Below, in pieces: positions 10,287-17,762 of a stretch of 64,000 bases of DNA (positions within the stretch are counted from its first letter, which is position 1; each line of letters begins with the position of its first letter). Location of the stretch: assembly GCA_025526915.1 (NCBI GenBank), contig JAHLKH010000018.1, positions 1 to 64,000 on the forward strand, in the 5' to 3' direction. The notes beneath the pieces are model-generated. The model did no database searches. It was not told the origin of the DNA and saw nothing but the letters and a program-made list of their open reading frames with translations. Position numbers and translations under genes: made by a program. The DNA comes from Entophlyctis helioformis (lineage: Eukaryota; Chytridiomycota; Chytridiomycetes; Chytridiales; Chytriomycetaceae).

Positions 10287-10492
10287 CGCCGATGGCCGCG
10301 CTGTGAGAGTCTGTCTGGGCATTTGGTGGGTGGCGGCCAGGCTATTGACTCTGAGGGGTGGGCAATTGGCGTTATGGAAAGTTTTAAAATATCTTGGAAA
10401 TTGTCTCTTTATCGGCCAAATATATGGCCAGATATTCATACAATTACCAAGGATTTTGGAGTTAAATTCGTCGCAAGAGGCGTTGAATAGAT
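10287..10492. other. AT-richer gap between the Fanzor element and the PDI gene
   Basis: This gap holds the presumed PDI promoter. It contains ATATATGGCCAGATATTC and other AT-rich stretches unlike the neighbouring coding DNA. No gene was seen. Confidence 0.5.
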
Positions 10493-10633
10493 GCCCGCAT
10501 ATCACACGATGGCAGGTTCGAGTCAGCAACGAGCATGCGACGACAGGCGGGCGAGGCACATCCACATGCATGAGGGTCTTACCTTTATCGTTAGAAAAAG
10601 TGACCCGTTAGGTCGATCGGGAGGTTCCCCGAT
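10493..10633 (-). ncRNA. Candidate Fanzor guide-RNA scaffold (fRNA/omegaRNA) downstream of the nuclease gene
   Basis: The base after the nuclease stop codon begins a perfect 6-bp hairpin (ATCGGG-GAACCT-CCCGAT, 10633-10616). A 4-bp hairpin follows (GACC-TAACG-GGTC, 10614-10602), then TTTTT (10599-10595), a possible Pol III stop. The flank down to about 10493 can be aligned with the 3' ends of three decayed copies at 20140-20265, 24471-24591 and 47181-47304. Shared blocks are GATCGACC(T/A)AAC, GATGTGC.YCGCC and TGCTGACT. The 47-kb copy keeps the same stem with a different loop (ATCGGG-CCCGT-CCCGAT). In known TnpB and Fanzor loci the guide RNA overlaps the end of the gene and extends to the element's right end. 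Assigning that role here is inference. Confidence 0.5.
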
Positions 10634-13600
10634 TCAAAGTTGGTAGTCAAACAAGTCACTGTGTGGGATGCAGGTCAAGTAACTTGAGGGCAGGCTGTCG
10701 GCGTGTTGGTCGCTGCTGGACGACGGATGGACCGTGTCTTGAACGCCACAGGACGGCAGGCTGATCTGGTCCCATGAGGCCACATGCGACTTGAAGTGTT
10801 TCCGCGTTTGAGGCTGTGGGACAACAGACGGAGCATTTCGTGCACGATCCTGGATGAATAGATGCATTGCCTCGATGTCTGCAAGGTACTCTGACGTGGC
10901 TGGATTGCTGTCAGGTTTTGTGTGCGTCAAGTAGAGCGGCCGGTGTCCAAAGAGCAGATGCCATAGTGCGACCATCCCGATGTTGGTGGCTCCAAGCACG
11001 TCGCGGTGGTAGACGGTCGTGCATGGTATGCACTCGTAGCGTCGCAGGTTGGTGCGGTTCTCGTATGGGATCCGCTGCTTGCACTGCGGGCACATCTGGC
11101 TGGTCAGGTTCTCGTTGCAGCGGTAGATCTGTGTATGTGGTGTGTGCATGATCGTGTGTCAGTTGGTGCACAGATGGATGGATGGATGGATGGACAGCGT
11201 GGCATCAGACGCACATAGGCATATCCAGACGACCGCAGATGCCTGATGAGAAACCTCTCAAACACAGCGTGCCGGCCACCTTGGCCTGTAAAGTCATGCC
11301 AAATGCCCACACAACGGGAATGTCCTTCTCTGTTGGCTTGTCACAGCGGCCTTGAGACGCAGCAGATGCGCGCTTTCCAGTGGTCGAGCCTGCCAGCTTC
11401 ATGATGCCCTCAAGAGCGTTTCCGCGATCAGACGTGCGGCTGCTGCACATGGTGAACCGCTTGGCCTTGACCTTCTGTGGAATGCCATGCCATGCCATGC
11501 CGTCCAGTGTGATCAGCAGGCGATCAAGCAGTATGGCGGCCGTGTCAATGGACATCCAGAACCAGAGAAAACGTACCCGTGCATTCAGGAATGGCGAGCA
11601 GTACGCATGGCAGCGCAGATCCCAAAAGGCTCTCTCGCCTGCTGTGGCGTTTGGATCGGCATGCTTTGCTGTCTTGAATGCAATGGCCGCCTGGATGTCG
11701 GCTGCCTTAGCATATCGATTGTTGAGCCTGACACAAGAGGCAGGCACGGTGAGTTGATCTGGTCAAGAGTGCGCGTGGCAGAGCCATGGCATGCATACCA
11801 CCGCTGAAAGTCACGCTCAGCTTGAAACATGCCAGAGGAGAGCACGTAGTTGGACTCGAGCTTATACGAAAAGTCTCTGAGATCAACCAAGATACTGGAT
11901 GCGCCATAGAGGTACCGCTGGCCCCAATCAAAGCTGACAACGCGAACAGTCTGGTAGCCTTGGTCAGTGAACAGATTGTTGGCGTTGATGATGTCGCGCA
12001 GTCGCTGTGAGGCGTAAAAGTTGCGCTTGCCCTGTCATGCCATGGCATGAGTGAGGAATGTGCAATGCATGTGCACCAATGCGCGAGTTTAGCATGCAAG
12101 TGGCTTACAGGATTGGGCGTGTATGGCTTGGCGGCTGACGGGTTGGCTGGATTGGCGGCTGTGGATGGCATGTCAGTCGGTGTGGACAACAAGTGTGCGT
12201 CTGGATTGGCACAGCAACTCACATTCGCCATTAATGTAATCGGGCTCGCCATCAGCCTCGTCAACAAGCCACGGCTGCTCGCCTGAAGACGCCGCATTGG
12301 GATCTGCATATCAAGGCGGCAGTCAGAATCAATGTGTGCACCAAAGCATTCAAGCACGCCACATACAGCAAGGTGACTCTGGACGGTTTGTGCGGCAGTC
12401 CAGTGCCAGCTGGTAGATGCTGTATCCATCCGTCATGATGCTGCCAAGTAGGATCGCCTTGGCTGGTCTTGCTGGACGCACAGCATCAATCGCAGCCTTG
12501 ATATGCTTCTCGCGCTCCTTGCCAACCAGACCCTGCTCATCGGCCTCTTGCGTCGCCTTGGCTGTTGCCTTGGCAACCGCGTCCATCTCATCTTTGGCTT
12601 CTGAAGGTGTCTGGAAGCGACCTTTCTTGGGGCGGAGACCTGGGAGAAGGATGTCAAAGATGCAAACCTCGCGACTTGCGCTGAATGCGTCTTGGATATC
12701 CTTGTTGGATGACGCAAGAGCTGACTTGGCATCTTTGTAGCCTTGGAGAAAAGTGCAGAGTCAGCATCAAATTGTGTACACATGGCATATACAGGCAGTG
12801 CGACCAACCAAGTGCAGCCAGAAGCTGTAGTCTCAATGCCTGCAAAGCAGGATCCTGATTGCCACGGATGCGCTCATCCTTTGTCCTCATCACCGCCCAA
12901 AAGAGGGTGGTCTCAGTGATGAGGACAAACGGATCGCGGCCTGCAGGCTGCGGACACAACTTGAGGGATGAGCCTGCGAGATCACACAACTGCTTGAACT
13001 TGCCGGCCTCTGACAGCGACTTGTTGCGCACAACCACCGTGAGCCTGTGCAGTGCTTGTGGGATCTCGACAACGCGTCCGTCTTGTCTGGTCAACAGTGG
13101 CGTGCCAGACATGGCATCCCCAGTGGCTGTATCCATTGCCTTGGCAAATTCCACTGCCTTGTCAGCAGATATACCAGGAATCAGTCGGTGGATTGCCCAG
13201 TCAATGAGCATCGACTGGTGGGTCATGAAGTGCACAGCAAGCATGCCACAGATGCCCCGTGCCAGATTTTTGTAGATGTCGTTCCGAGCAGCTGCACACA
13301 AACTGTCGTCAAGCCTGCCAGGCAAAACGGCATGCATTGTGCTTGCGTCCATCTGCACAATGGCTGACAGCAATGAGCCGGCCTGCGTCGCGTCCATCTT
13401 GGCTGCCCGCGCCACACCAGCCCGCATCTTGGTCATGCTGTCCCGGATCATCTGCTGCGTCCATTCGCGGTTGATGATCATCTGCATGATGGTCACAATC
13501 CACGAGTGGGCCACATGCTTTGTCGCCCGCGGCATGACCGACTCCTGACCGGTGAGAATGTAGCCCAGGTATCGCAGAAGCATCGTGACGGCTCCCTCGC

Positions 13601-16600
13601 CACTAGAGGTGCTGTTTGTGAGCACCTTGAGCAGATCATTTGCCGATGGTACTGCCCGTTGTAGTGGTGGCTCGATGGCTGGTGGTTGGGCATCGGTGCT
13701 GCTGGATGCGGCGGCTACTGCTGCTGGTGCTGCTGTTGCTACTGCTGGTGCTGTGTCGTCGGTGAAGGTGCAGATCTTGACCATTGTGCCCACCTCAAGT
13801 CTCACCAAGTCGCCATAGTGAGCAATGTCGGTGTTGCTGCAGAGCGGGCCCTCGCCGTACATGCGCCGGGCATTAACTGGCCATCTGAGGACGCATCCAG
13901 TGGCGTAGAGCCACGCGCTCTCGTCCTTGAAGTGATCAGGATCAATATACACATATTCCATCTCACCATTCCTCCTGGCCTCCATGACGCAGAACTTGAG
14001 TGGCAGTGGTGCATATGGGTCGAGCGCAACGAGCTCTTTGACGATGGCGCCGATCATAGTGATGCATGCACGCCGCACGTCGGCCGTGTATCGGTACACG
14101 CCGTTGAAGATGTTTTCTGAGACCGAACCGCGGGTCTGTGTTGCCGGCGCCGTCTTGGCCTGGCGTCCAAAATACTTTGCAAGCATCGGATCTCCAGAGA
14201 GCATTTCCTGTATGTAGCACAAGTCAACATACACAAAGCCAGACATGCAGAGCAACATGGCAATCCAAACTCATACCTCCATTTTGACAATCTGCTCAGG
14301 GCGATCGTATGTGCTCTCCACTGGCCTTGCCTCATTGCCATGGATGGCAGCAGCAGCTGTCATGACTGGCAATGCCATCATGCGGTGGATCTTTTCAAGC
14401 ATCTGCTCTATCGCCGATCTTTCACCACGCTCGTATCTGTCAAAGAACGCACCGGTCAGCACACACACTCAAGGCACATGCCATGCCATATGCCACTTAC
14501 GCCCGTGTCTCGCCTCAGATGGAGCCTGGCGGGCTTGCCTGCTCGCATCCTTCTTGTGCTCCTGGATGAACTTCTTGGTCTTGGCCTTCTCAGCTTGCTC
14601 AGCTCGCTCCTTATCACGCTCAGCCTGCATGGCCAGTGTGACCAGGTATGGATCCTGCCGTGGTTGAATGCAATGTTAGGCATGCATCTTGAATGTGCAC
14701 AAGATGCTCGCAATCACAAGCCTGCAGTTCAACTCACAGTCGTCCTTGTGTCTTGAAGCACACCAATGTGAAAGACCTTGTCGCAATCTGTGCCTCTATC
14801 ATCTGCGGCTCGAGGTGGCAGCAGCATCTTGCATGGTTTTGGTGGCTTGACGGCCTGTTGAGTGGAAGGATAAGCAATCGCAGCAAGCCGTCACATGCAA
14901 ACAGAGCCAGCAAATGCAAAGACGCACCGGTACTCGATTGATAATCGACTGCAGCATCTGCTTTGCTTGGTCATAACACTCGCCAAATTCTGACACTTGG
15001 AAATCAGCATGCCTGACATCCGTTGGGTTTGTCAGGGCATTGAGCGTCTTTATGGCCGTTTCGCGAATATCGGCAACAGCTTCTGGGGTCGCAATCCGTG
15101 TGCTCCTTCTGAGCGGCTGCTTTGTCTTTTTACCCTTGACTGTCACACAAATGCCGTGATCAGTGGTGAATACACAATGCCACTGTGTCAACCCGTGCAG
15201 AGCAAACCTGGCTTTTTAGACGCCTGAAAGATGCGCATTTCAAGCCTGGATACTTCTTGAGCCGCTCATTCAGTCTTGCTATCACCTTCTGCTCGGCCCA
15301 GTAATGGATCAAGTCGGCAGCATTGAAGATCAGCAACAGCATGCAGTGGACAGCCAAGACACGCATCCAAGCCTCGCAAAACCCACCAATGCATGATAAA
15401 GAATCTTGCCGGCCGCGCTGAGCCTTGCATATGCTTCTTTAGCGATACGCCAGTCATGCACAGCCTGCAGCAGCTGCTTGCTTGCATTCTCGCAGATATC
15501 AGCAAGGATGTCGCGGCCGTTGAGAATGTTGTCGGCGAGGAGGTCTGCCGTGCATCGGAGAACGCAGCTAAACACGACACGGCAGCCATTGAGCATGACA
15601 AAAACGTCGTCCAGTCGCCTTGTGTTGACAATGTGCTTGGCGAGCACCATGACTTCATCCCGTGTAAGGTGCCAAACCGCACCACTGGCATTGCCCTTCA
15701 GCTGCTGTGCCGTGTGGCTCAAGCAGCAGTTGCTGTAGGCTGTGCATGCAGAGGCAGATCTGCCAGTGGCATCCATCAGAGTCAGTGCCATGAGAATCCT
15801 CCAGAGATCACAAGCATGCCTACTTTTTTCGAGCCGAGGCAGCCCTGTTGGCAGTCCTGCTGTTGCCATTGGATGTGCATGCATTCATGTCAATGCCATG
15901 CTGTCCAAGTGCATCCAAAGCAAGACTTACAGCGGTATCATTTGAGCAAAAACATCCCCATAACAACCATGGCTTTGGTCTGTGAACTCTCCAATATCCG
16001 CTCCAGTTTCGTCACGGTTGAGAAACACCGCGAAGGCATTGCTGAATGATTGAGCAAGAGGCTTGCCACCGATCTTGTACATCTGCAACATAAATGAGGC
16101 CTTGAAGACGTCCACAAACATCCTGGCAAGGTCTGGGTCTTGCAGGCGTTGACAGAACTCTGCGACAGTGATCCCTGCCCATGTTGCCTCAAAACGAATG
16201 CATGCCATAATGCACTTTGCAGCCGTGACGATCCCTTGCAAGTCAACATTGCAGCATCACAAGTAAGTCAAGGTCGCAGCGCATGGCATCCAAAATTGCA
16301 AAGCAGGCAAGCCAACATACCAATCTCGTCACAATGAAAATAGTCATTTCTCGCTGCGGCTGCCGCCAACCGGCAGATGTCAAGAATCTCTGGCAAGCCA
16401 AAGGTGGCTGCAATAGATGCTACACCCGGGTGATTGTACGATCTCATCTGTGCAATCTGTCTGCCGCGCATTTGCAGCAGCAGGACAGGGCAATAGCCCG
16501 CGCAATGAAAGATGAGGTCGGTATCACCACTGATGACGACGACCGGCACATTGCTGTCAAGAAAGGCGTGTGAGCCATGGATTGGAGAGGCATGCAGAAG

Positions 16601-17283
16601 ATCCAACCAACCTTGCTTCGCGCACACAGCATGCAATGCAAACATCCGCCTCATTCTCGCAAAGGCACACAGATGACCCTTCCCCAAAGTATCCAAGAAG
16701 ACCCCCAATGGCCCTGCAGATTGCCGCCTTACGCTTGCATGTCAATGGAAACGCCCACTGGAGTGACTGGATCTCATCCCTGGAAAGGCACTCAGTCAGC
16801 ATGGCATGCAAATCAACAACAGCAAGTGGCATACTTTGTGAGCCTGTTGCCTTTCTGGTCTGCTTTTCGCTTGGCCACCATTGTCTGGATCAACAATGCT
16901 GCTTCCAAATTTACCCGTGCCCGCTCAGTGCGGACAGCCTTGACATTGGTGTTGAGAAGCGAGCCATCGACATGGAGCCGGACCGTGTGGAGCTTTCCAA
17001 TCGATGCTGCGAGGCTGGCAATGAGCGGCTCGAGTGTCGGCGTCCAGTTTTCCTCTGGCTGTGCCAGCAGTATTGGTGCTGCTTTGTAGATATCGCCGGC
17101 ATAAAGACTGAGAACGTCCACATGCACAACACACTGGATGGGCGGACGCTCTGTGTTGTGCTGCTGCAGTGTTTGATGGGGCTGTACCACGACCTGAATT
17201 GCACCCGAGAGAGGGTTTGTGGGATCAAGGGTTTTGCTACCACCTGCTTTGTCGATGGGAGGAGTCGCGCCGACGACTCCCAT
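10634..17283 (-). CDS. FEN1/XPG-type nuclease fused to a Fanzor (TnpB-like) RNA-guided nuclease
   Basis: Tracing splice sites gives 19 exons that stay in phase and encode 1752 residues. Residues 1-300 form a FEN1/XPG nuclease. The seven catalytic acids of FEN1 have counterparts: D56 (VHVDVLSLY), D106 (HVDG), E191 and E193 (ENEADVCIA), D216 and D218 (ISGDTDLIF), and D276 (ARNDYF) in a helix-3-turn-helix. The middle, about 300-1300, is unrecognised; it includes a coiled-coil segment and one 1.4-kb exon (14207-12809). From about 1300 comes GSIMTDGYSIYQLAL, typical of Fanzors. Then RuvC-I D1411 (SFDWGQR), RuvC-II E1594 (YRCNENLTSQMC), a zinc ribbon (C1601, C1604, C1621, C1624) and RuvC-III D1631 (YHRDVLGATNIG). 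One intron is GC-AG (donor near 14538). Intron 17 (11344-11286, 59 nt) has a weak GTGACA donor but is needed to keep phase. The start MGVVGATPPI resembles the MGI/MGV start of FEN1/XPG. Two adjacent genes are an alternative, but no stop or promoter gap separates the halves. Confidence 0.8.
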
Positions 17284-17590
17284 GCGTGTTGGGCGTGCTT
17301 GTTGGTTTGTTGTTGCGTGTTGTTGTGTGACGTGGCAAGTCGCGATCTGGTGTTTGTTTGCATTGGCATGCTCTGATTGTTTGGCAGCAACACATGGAGC
17401 ACTGGTCTGTGTGTGTGGAATGGCATGCTCCTCAGAGAGAGAGAGAGCGTTGCACATGACTATGCATTCGCCCCTCTTTATTCATGGAGGACACACACGC
17501 ACGGCCCAGCGAGACAGCAGGCGCTGCTGCCTGCACCACTGCCGTTGCTGTGCTCGCATCGCGCAGTGTCTGCACTTCTCAAGGGCTCTC

Positions 17591-17686
17591 TAGATCGACC
17601 AATCACAGCGATTCCACCAGGATCGACCAATCACAGCGATTCCACCAAGAACAGCCAATCAGGAGTTTTCCACCAGGGGTAATGGT
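17591..17686 (+). promoter_or_regulatory. Triple CCAAT-box module between the Fanzor fusion and sirtuin genes
   Basis: Two near-perfect tandem copies of GATCGACCAATCACAGCGAT plus TCCACCA are followed by a third unit (CAGCCAATCAGGAGTTTTCC) and ACCAGGGGTAAT. It lies about 80-170 bp upstream of the sirtuin start and about 310-400 bp upstream of the divergent fusion gene. The last two units match the module at 7376-7440 in order and orientation. The rest of 17284-17762 is the shared upstream region, with a short GA run near 17436-17447 and no gene. Confidence 0.72.
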
Positions 17687-17762
17687 ATGAGAACCGGGCC
17701 GAAATAGGACTCTCAAGAGGCAAGCGAAAAGTCCACCCCTCGTGGAGAACCGGGCCAAGTAT

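Follow-up and report, generated by a model that had tools for sequence, protein, structure and literature searches.

A transposon-borne gene joining a probable XPG-type nuclease module to a Fanzor nuclease in the chytrid fungus Entophlyctis helioformis

Fanzor1 elements have been described in fungi, including Spu-1 of Spizellomyces punctatus, for which the relevant passages of the source report no transposase between the repeats (PMC10432273), and the MuDR-like Fanzor elements of Rhizopus, Phycomyces and Mucor (PMC3627910). Some Fanzor1 proteins are said to reach approximately 800 residues (PMC10711439). Here, we describe a gene family of Entophlyctis helioformis, a chytrid fungus (Chytridiomycota), based on a gene located on the minus strand (17283-10634) of a window of 64,000 nucleotides, which is the whole stretch of DNA analysed (contig JAHLKH010000018.1, positions 1 to 64,000). 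The gene links an N-terminal part resembling the XPG/FEN1 flap nucleases to a C-terminal Fanzor nuclease, and it lies in a DNA transposon family with terminal inverted repeats (TIRs), of which the fused protein is the sole evident gene. As in the described fungal Fanzor1 elements (PMC10432273, PMC3627910, as far as their relevant passages go), a Fanzor with a RuvC domain and a C4 zinc ribbon is carried by an inverted-repeat element that is present in multiple copies per genome and in which no transposase was found between the repeats. The E. helioformis family differs from those elements in having an N-terminal XPG-like module, more than twice the protein length, 16 introns, target duplications of 8 bp, and a mosaic of exchanged XPG, REC and RuvC parts. 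The family is best filed among Fanzor elements, as a variant with an XPG-like module.

The first-pass annotation of this DNA, which rightly placed it among the early fungi, knew of no described Fanzor with a built-in flap endonuclease, and no description of an XPG-Fanzor fusion was found among the titles and abstracts of open-licence PMC papers listed by literature searches. Two papers contain both terms, Fanzor and flap endonuclease (PMC11071296 and PMC12719977). The first, a preprint, mentions 'Fanzor flap endonuclease homologs' of viruses in passages that give no domain structure (PMC11071296); the resemblance to the present family lies in this pairing of names, but the proteins are viral, and the naming is perhaps loose. 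No homologue was returned at E <= 0.001 when 5.8 billion proteins were searched with the full-length protein and with the Fanzor region, and viral contigs gave no match to family queries A1 and A2. A search with a frame of copy L023 found four proteins resembling the Fanzor exons at E <= 0.01, all of them from E. helioformis.

Copies from the same genome were used for reconstruction of the gene. Six of them (L009, L010, L011, L012, L019 and L022) share approximately 96-97% identity with the window copy over nearly the whole element. Copies of a sister subfamily (L018, L020, L024, L025, L027, L028 and L033) are more distant, six showing approximately 77-79% identity to the window over the 5′ half and L033 also grouping with these six. 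The seven sister-subfamily copies support a gene model of 17 exons separated by 16 introns with GT-AG borders, arranged in the window as follows:

17283-10634, minus strand: gene, spliced exons joining an XPG-type N-terminal part to a C-terminal Fanzor
16835..17283, minus strand: exon 1, start MGV and XPG_N-like ligands D56 (HVD) and D106 (HVDG), from alignment across copies
16612..16779, minus strand: exon 2, E193-A-D195 motif (CENEADVCIA), from alignment across copies
16321..16553, minus strand: exon 3, D216-x-D218 (SGDTD) and D276 (NDY), from alignment across copies
15931..16234, minus strand: exon 4, helical stretch that follows the XPG_I-like core (GIVTAAKC...)
15387..15819, minus strand: exon 5, acceptor set from sister copies
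15208..15288, minus strand: exon 6, with a single-base deletion common to L022, from copy alignment
14928..15139, minus strand: exon 7, basic linker, acceptor set from sister copies
14738..14854, minus strand: exon 8, from the gene model and junction scoring in copies
14501..14654, minus strand: exon 9, charged linker with a single-base deletion, from copy alignment
14277..14436, minus strand: exon 10, from the gene model and junction scoring in copies
12809..14207, minus strand: exon 11, presumed start of the Fanzor WED domain and REC region, strongly variable, from its position before RuvC
12367..12741, minus strand: exon 12, region before RuvC-I (SIMTDGYSIYQLAL)
12223..12303, minus strand: exon 13, from the gene model and junction scoring in copies
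12109..12158, minus strand: exon 14, from the gene model and junction scoring in copies
11799..12031, minus strand: exon 15, RuvC-I Asp (VVSFDWGQRY)
11215..11727, minus strand: exon 16, middle of RuvC with a single-base deletion, from copy alignment
11475..11576, minus strand: possible in-frame 102-nt intron within exon 16, skipped by the non-redundant (nr) database models P0001, P0003 and P0004
10634..11128, minus strand: exon 17, Glu (NENLTS), C4 zinc ribbon, RuvC-III HRD and stop, from PF07282 over its cut-off and motif spacing

That one gene links both halves, as the first-pass annotation had claimed, is well supported because the coding sequence of the sister copy L028 (contig C26) is continuous over these 17 exons bar one insertion, with junctions common to the sister copies. 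This copy is open over 1522 amino acids from exon 1 to the start of exon 13 and over a further 451 from the end of exon 13 to exon 17, its GT-AG junctions are in phase, and its frame is broken solely by the insertion in exon 13. The inserted sequence is approximately 122 nt long (101 + 21 in the alignment) and has intron-like edges by eye. When junctions were scored in 13 copies, 14 of the 16 introns had GT..AG borders in at least eight and up to all 13, and introns 6 and 9 have GT..AG in 10 aligned copies. Intron 11 is the least conserved, with GT..AG in 8/13 copies; three copies have GC..AG, and in L028 and L033 the acceptor is shifted. The position of intron 2 is identical in L031, though the exon searched is only 37% identical there. 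The stretch 11475-11576 of exon 16 may be an optional intron. On this gene model, the predicted protein would have about 1800-1970 residues: an XPG/Rad2-like module occupying residues ~1-345, then helices and linkers, and finally the Fanzor.

Barring an assembly error at this locus, the window copy itself carries frameshifts. At least three single-base coding deletions are present (exons 6, 9 and 16), which may reflect decay or assembly error, and single-base deletions are frequent in several other copies as well. The 19 in-phase exons originally traced by hand could not be upheld against the 17 exons of the sister copies, since the window copy can be read in one open frame only if a false 59-nt intron (11344-11286) is assumed, as in an initial 18-exon model and presumably in the hand tracing; the sequence concerned is coding in 10 other aligned copies, with one base missing from the window, and this intron was rejected. 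The 18-exon model was also dropped, one of its 'introns' being coding and several of its junctions having been shifted by deletions or wrong acceptors. The claim that both active sites are intact holds for the motifs, but not for the window copy as a protein.

The identity of the Fanzor half is secure at the level of sequence. PF07282, the zinc-ribbon domain of TnpB/Cas12f type, matches four of four members tested, with 38 bits for the window model and 40.4 bits for L028 (cut-off 26.3). The published Fanzor motif, given as D-X(125,275)-[TS][TS]-xx-C4-X(5,50)-RD in the relevant passage of PMC3627910, is found in L028 as D-X222-TS-QM-C4-X6-RD, and the RuvC Asp, the Glu, the four Cys and the Asp of HRD are invariant in four copies from different subfamilies. 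The Fanzor catalytic residues listed by the first-pass annotation are thus present, and the protein is carried by a eukaryotic mobile element, as judged from TIRs, target duplications and copies. One observation counts against the reading favoured below, namely w values of 0.46-0.74 at low divergence for the Fanzor part of the sampled copies, as for decaying copies. The WED-REC region presumably begins at exon 11, with RuvC and the zinc ribbon at the C-terminal end. No Pfam family was detected in exon 11, and a low-confidence model of this exon from L028 (mean predicted local distance difference test score, pLDDT, 44) gave no fold match; the model is strand-rich at residues 61-150 and then helical, and blocks within 61-150 have pLDDT of 68-84, except for 39 at 121-130.

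The N-terminal module is probably XPG-type, because its acidic ligands are conserved with XPG-like spacing. D56, D106, E193, D195, D216, D218 and D276 (window numbering) are kept across subfamilies, and we take the ligand positions of FEN1 as the match for these seven residues. In an alignment of eight diverged sequences, the other seven being 36-63% identical to L028, the five residues E196, D198, D219, D221 and D279 (L028 numbering) are invariant in 8/8, and all six rows that cover exon 1 contain the two N-terminal Asp residues (two rows lack this exon). Six of the ligands proposed in the first-pass annotation were thereby retained, but E191 was rejected as that position holds E, D, A or K across subfamilies; the E-x-[ED] pair is E193/D195, which matches the EAD and EAE pairs of the host's own XPG-family proteins. 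Two such host proteins, named EXO1-like and XPG-like by eye, have ligand spacings of 2/19/2/51 and 2/19/2/49, compared with 2/21/2/58 in the element. In addition, the module of L032 begins with MGVIGL, the usual start of the XPG/FEN1 nuclease family, and the XPG exons have been under purifying selection between subfamilies (w 0.21-0.47). With respect to the XPG/Rad2 nucleases (FEN1, EXO1, XPG and GEN1; the nearest Pfam family is XPG_I_2), the module is therefore similar in the order, spacing and identity of its ligands, in the MGVxGL start of one subfamily, and in an EAD pair like that of the host EXO1-like protein. Unlike these nucleases, it has diverged too far to pass the family cut-offs, is joined to a predicted RNA-guided nuclease, and is transposon-borne.

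Several results weigh against the XPG assignment. Pfam XPG_I_2 (PF12813) matches six of the eight members, all below threshold (best E 3.7e-4; best score 20.5 bits against a cut-off of 24.2); it ranks first in the five hit tables inspected, and of six members scanned singly, four (the window, L029, L032 and L038; E 0.0033 to 0.22) have it as their best family, and L030 and L031 have no XPG_I_2 match. The profile searches suggested as a check by the first-pass annotation recovered the Fanzor family, but XPG_I and XPG_N gave no match to the XPG part of the element, over their cut-offs or otherwise, and a genome search with PF00867 yielded four matches at three places, none at the XPG places of the element. 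Alignment by hhalign to the two host XPG-family proteins failed, being no better than controls, and a family profile run against 4419 frames did not recover those proteins. A PDB sequence and profile search of the XPG part found no match, and a PHROGs search was also negative. The suggested structure prediction left the N-terminal fold unconfirmed: an AlphaFold model of a partial natural frame lacking exon 1 was poor (pLDDT 48), with no fold match at E <= 0.001. With a typed XPG consensus the score was poorer than with the natural sequences (E 0.016). The FEN1/XPG label, which the seven ligands and their spacing favour, is hence best regarded as probable rather than proven. Such sub-threshold family matches and the lack of confirmation from the fold search would also fit an XPG-like fold used for binding a flap, a gap or RNA instead of cutting, or a different fold among the acidic nucleases of the PIN superfamily; however, all ligands are kept under purifying selection across subfamilies only 36-63% identical to L028, and we consider this alternative doubtful.

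The XPG-Fanzor arrangement occurs far beyond chance, because the same order recurs genome-wide. In the E. helioformis assembly (29.6 Mb in 482 contigs), a search with the XPG exon, scoring the best 150 of 157 candidates, gave at least 145 places after merging, and two Fanzor searches, scoring the best 150 of 258 and the best 150 of 205, gave at least 186 merged places. A same-strand Fanzor lies within 20 kb downstream at 98 of the 145 XPG places, 76 of these 98 at a distance of 4.5-7 kb, and a Fanzor on the wrong strand or in the wrong order lies within 20 kb at only eight. Although the frameshifts of the window copy might hint at an assembly artefact, or the two halves might be chance neighbours, an ordered linkage at 98/145 places over diverged subfamilies refutes both, and this explanation has virtually no probability left. 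A point on the other side is that 90 of the 186 Fanzor places have no scored XPG exon upstream; these are a mixture of truncated copies, contig ends and unscored hits. One 5′-truncated copy (L016) has an 867-residue retrotransposon-like pol frame, recognised by eye, upstream of it (1-2601, gene sense). Extra sequence is also found 5′ of the XPG exon in some subfamilies (L023 1645-2112, and L036); in L023 it encodes an AT-hook-like RGRGRPKG peptide, and Pfam gave no match.

The mobile-element setting, with TIRs, target duplications and roughly 100-200 copies, was missed by the first-pass annotation. In the window, it comprises the following features:

10426..17700, minus strand (gene sense): whole transposon copy, 7275 bp, homology to other copies stopping at both borders
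17678..17700, minus strand: 5′ TIR GGCCCGGTTCTCATACCATTACC, exact pattern match
17592..17661, minus strand: 28-bp CCAAT-containing subterminal repeat, 2.5 tandem copies, just inside the 5′ TIR
10426..10448, plus strand: 3′ TIR, one mismatch to the GGCCCGATATTCATACAATTACC of the family, from comparison with family copies
10426..10633, minus strand: noncoding 3′ end, candidate omega/right-end RNA scaffold, from conservation across copies

The element ends are imperfect inverted repeats of approximately 23 bp and are uniform among the sampled copies, and the first 160 bp of the element are 90.6% identical in the distant copy L036. The CCAAT repeats are a candidate promoter or transposase-binding site. 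A TIR pattern covering both ends with up to two mismatches occurs at 198 genomic sites, compared with none for the reversed control pattern. Among the 100 exact sites listed (of 198), an XPG or Fanzor place lies within 12 kb at 96, and the orientation is as expected at 91; two of the four orphans (L035 and L036) belong to the same family, and the other two (L034 and one on C89) are near contig ends. At two sites (C199:20580 and C35:165458), only approximately 1.6 kb and 0.3 kb, respectively, separate the 5′ TIR from the Fanzor ribbon, and these are probably internal-deletion derivatives that keep the 3′ module. An 8-bp target duplication can be read directly in L017, L018 and L020. When a length of 8 bp was assumed and small shifts were allowed, at least seven of the eight flanking positions matched in 7/13 copies (window included), compared with 5/156 mismatched pairings. 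Six of the 13 copies lack a clear target duplication; four of the 12 other copies that have both ends match at no more than 6/8 positions, and the window copy matches at only 6/8, which counts against this part of the evidence.

The XPG part, the REC part and the RuvC part with the 3′ end have been swapped between subfamilies, most simply by recombination, because distances, intron identities and the mosaic structure of L020 differ by module. Synonymous distances between L028 and the other sampled subfamilies are 0.65-2.3 for the XPG exons and 0.10-0.32 for exons 15-17. Introns 13-16 are 90-100% identical in the nine copies tested, introns 4-11 are intermediate, and introns 1-3 are near background in the copies that have diverged most. 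At fourfold-degenerate sites, L020 and L028 agree at 93-100% in the XPG exons, 30-50% in exon 11 and 87-93% in the RuvC part, and the module from RuvC to the 3′ end has evidently been homogenised. In the pairs L012/L022 and L020/L027, one flank is common to the pair and the other flank is different, which suggests recombination between copies. Such separate evolution and recombination of the XPG and Fanzor parts, together with nr gene models that are partial (P0004 starts in exon 12), might indicate that the gene yields two proteins through alternative promoters, splicing or a cleaved junction, the XPG part and Fanzor being neighbours rather than fused. Between the halves, however, there is no stop and no noncoding gap, and the in-phase introns are conserved, so that two separate proteins seem unlikely to us.

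Beyond the coding sequence, approximately 210 nt from the stop codon to the TIR are conserved in 27 of the 32 loci searched, representing all sampled subfamilies, with 74-96% identity where aligned, and contain invariant blocks; the remaining five loci either stop short of the 3′ end or belong to host genes. This conservation extends to copies whose XPG exon is only 37-48% identical. The segment sits where Fanzor guide RNAs lie, and a variable-length stem-loop recurs across its sequence variants, 7/14 distinct segments having p < 0.05 against shuffles. Since homogenisation alone could cause the conservation, a guide RNA is proposed here as a candidate only. Weighing against it, RNAalifold found no covarying pair in the 3′ end, the 3′ end of the window folds no better than shuffles (z -1.33), and the window's own hairpin has p 0.43 against shuffles. 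An Rfam search gave no match.

How this family moves and what its fused protein does can be addressed only tentatively, and the reading that we favour, in which the transposon-borne XPG-Fanzor fusion acts on repair, seems possible though a little short of probable. The element would be moved by a transposase supplied in trans, which we infer because none was found inside it: Pfam profiles revealed no transposase family in the element, including no DDE transposase, and no sister element combining the same TIRs with a transposase was seen among the 100 listed of the 198 TIR sites. The 3′ end would be transcribed into a guide RNA reading into the flank, and Fanzor would then cut sites that have the flank but lack the element, such as donor or allelic empty sites. 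The tethered XPG-like module might remove 5′ flaps or resect the cut strand, and this end processing would favour repair by recombination with a copy that bears the element, which would thereby be retained or copied. Repair of this kind between copies would also account for the homogenised 3′ module.

A different role, in which transposition is catalysed by the fused protein itself, with Fanzor making guide-directed or end-directed cuts and the XPG-like nuclease trimming the second strand in place of any DDE transposase, would fit both the absence of a transposase family from the element and the 100 listed TIR sites, where no other element type was seen and two of the four orphans were of the same family. 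Against it, TIRs with 8-bp target duplications, as found here, are the usual mark of DDE-type integrases. Moreover, Fanzor elements without their own transposase are known, and the ends of some have been used to place them in a DDE superfamily, according to the relevant passages of PMC3627910. We regard such a role as quite unlikely. The suggestion in the first-pass annotation of a new RNA-guided system or a transposition enzyme is a hypothesis. A more far-reaching version is equally improbable in our view: a one-polypeptide RNA-guided mobile system in which Fanzor would open a flank-guided target and the XPG flap nuclease would process the ends, giving copying or insertion without a DDE transposase, and in which REC and XPG swaps would change the choice of target or substrate while the RuvC core and the guide-RNA end stay uniform.

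If the favoured reading, a trans-mobilised element whose Fanzor is assisted by an XPG-like nuclease, is true, a second nuclease on a Fanzor chain would show how RNA-guided cutting can be coupled to end processing in eukaryotes, and the fused protein may represent a possible cut-and-trim tool. The family is relevant to the benefit, still debated, that a transposon gains from Fanzor, and because it is large, with close copies and recombining modules, the guide, the target-adjacent motif and the role of the XPG-like module may be readable from its insertion sites.

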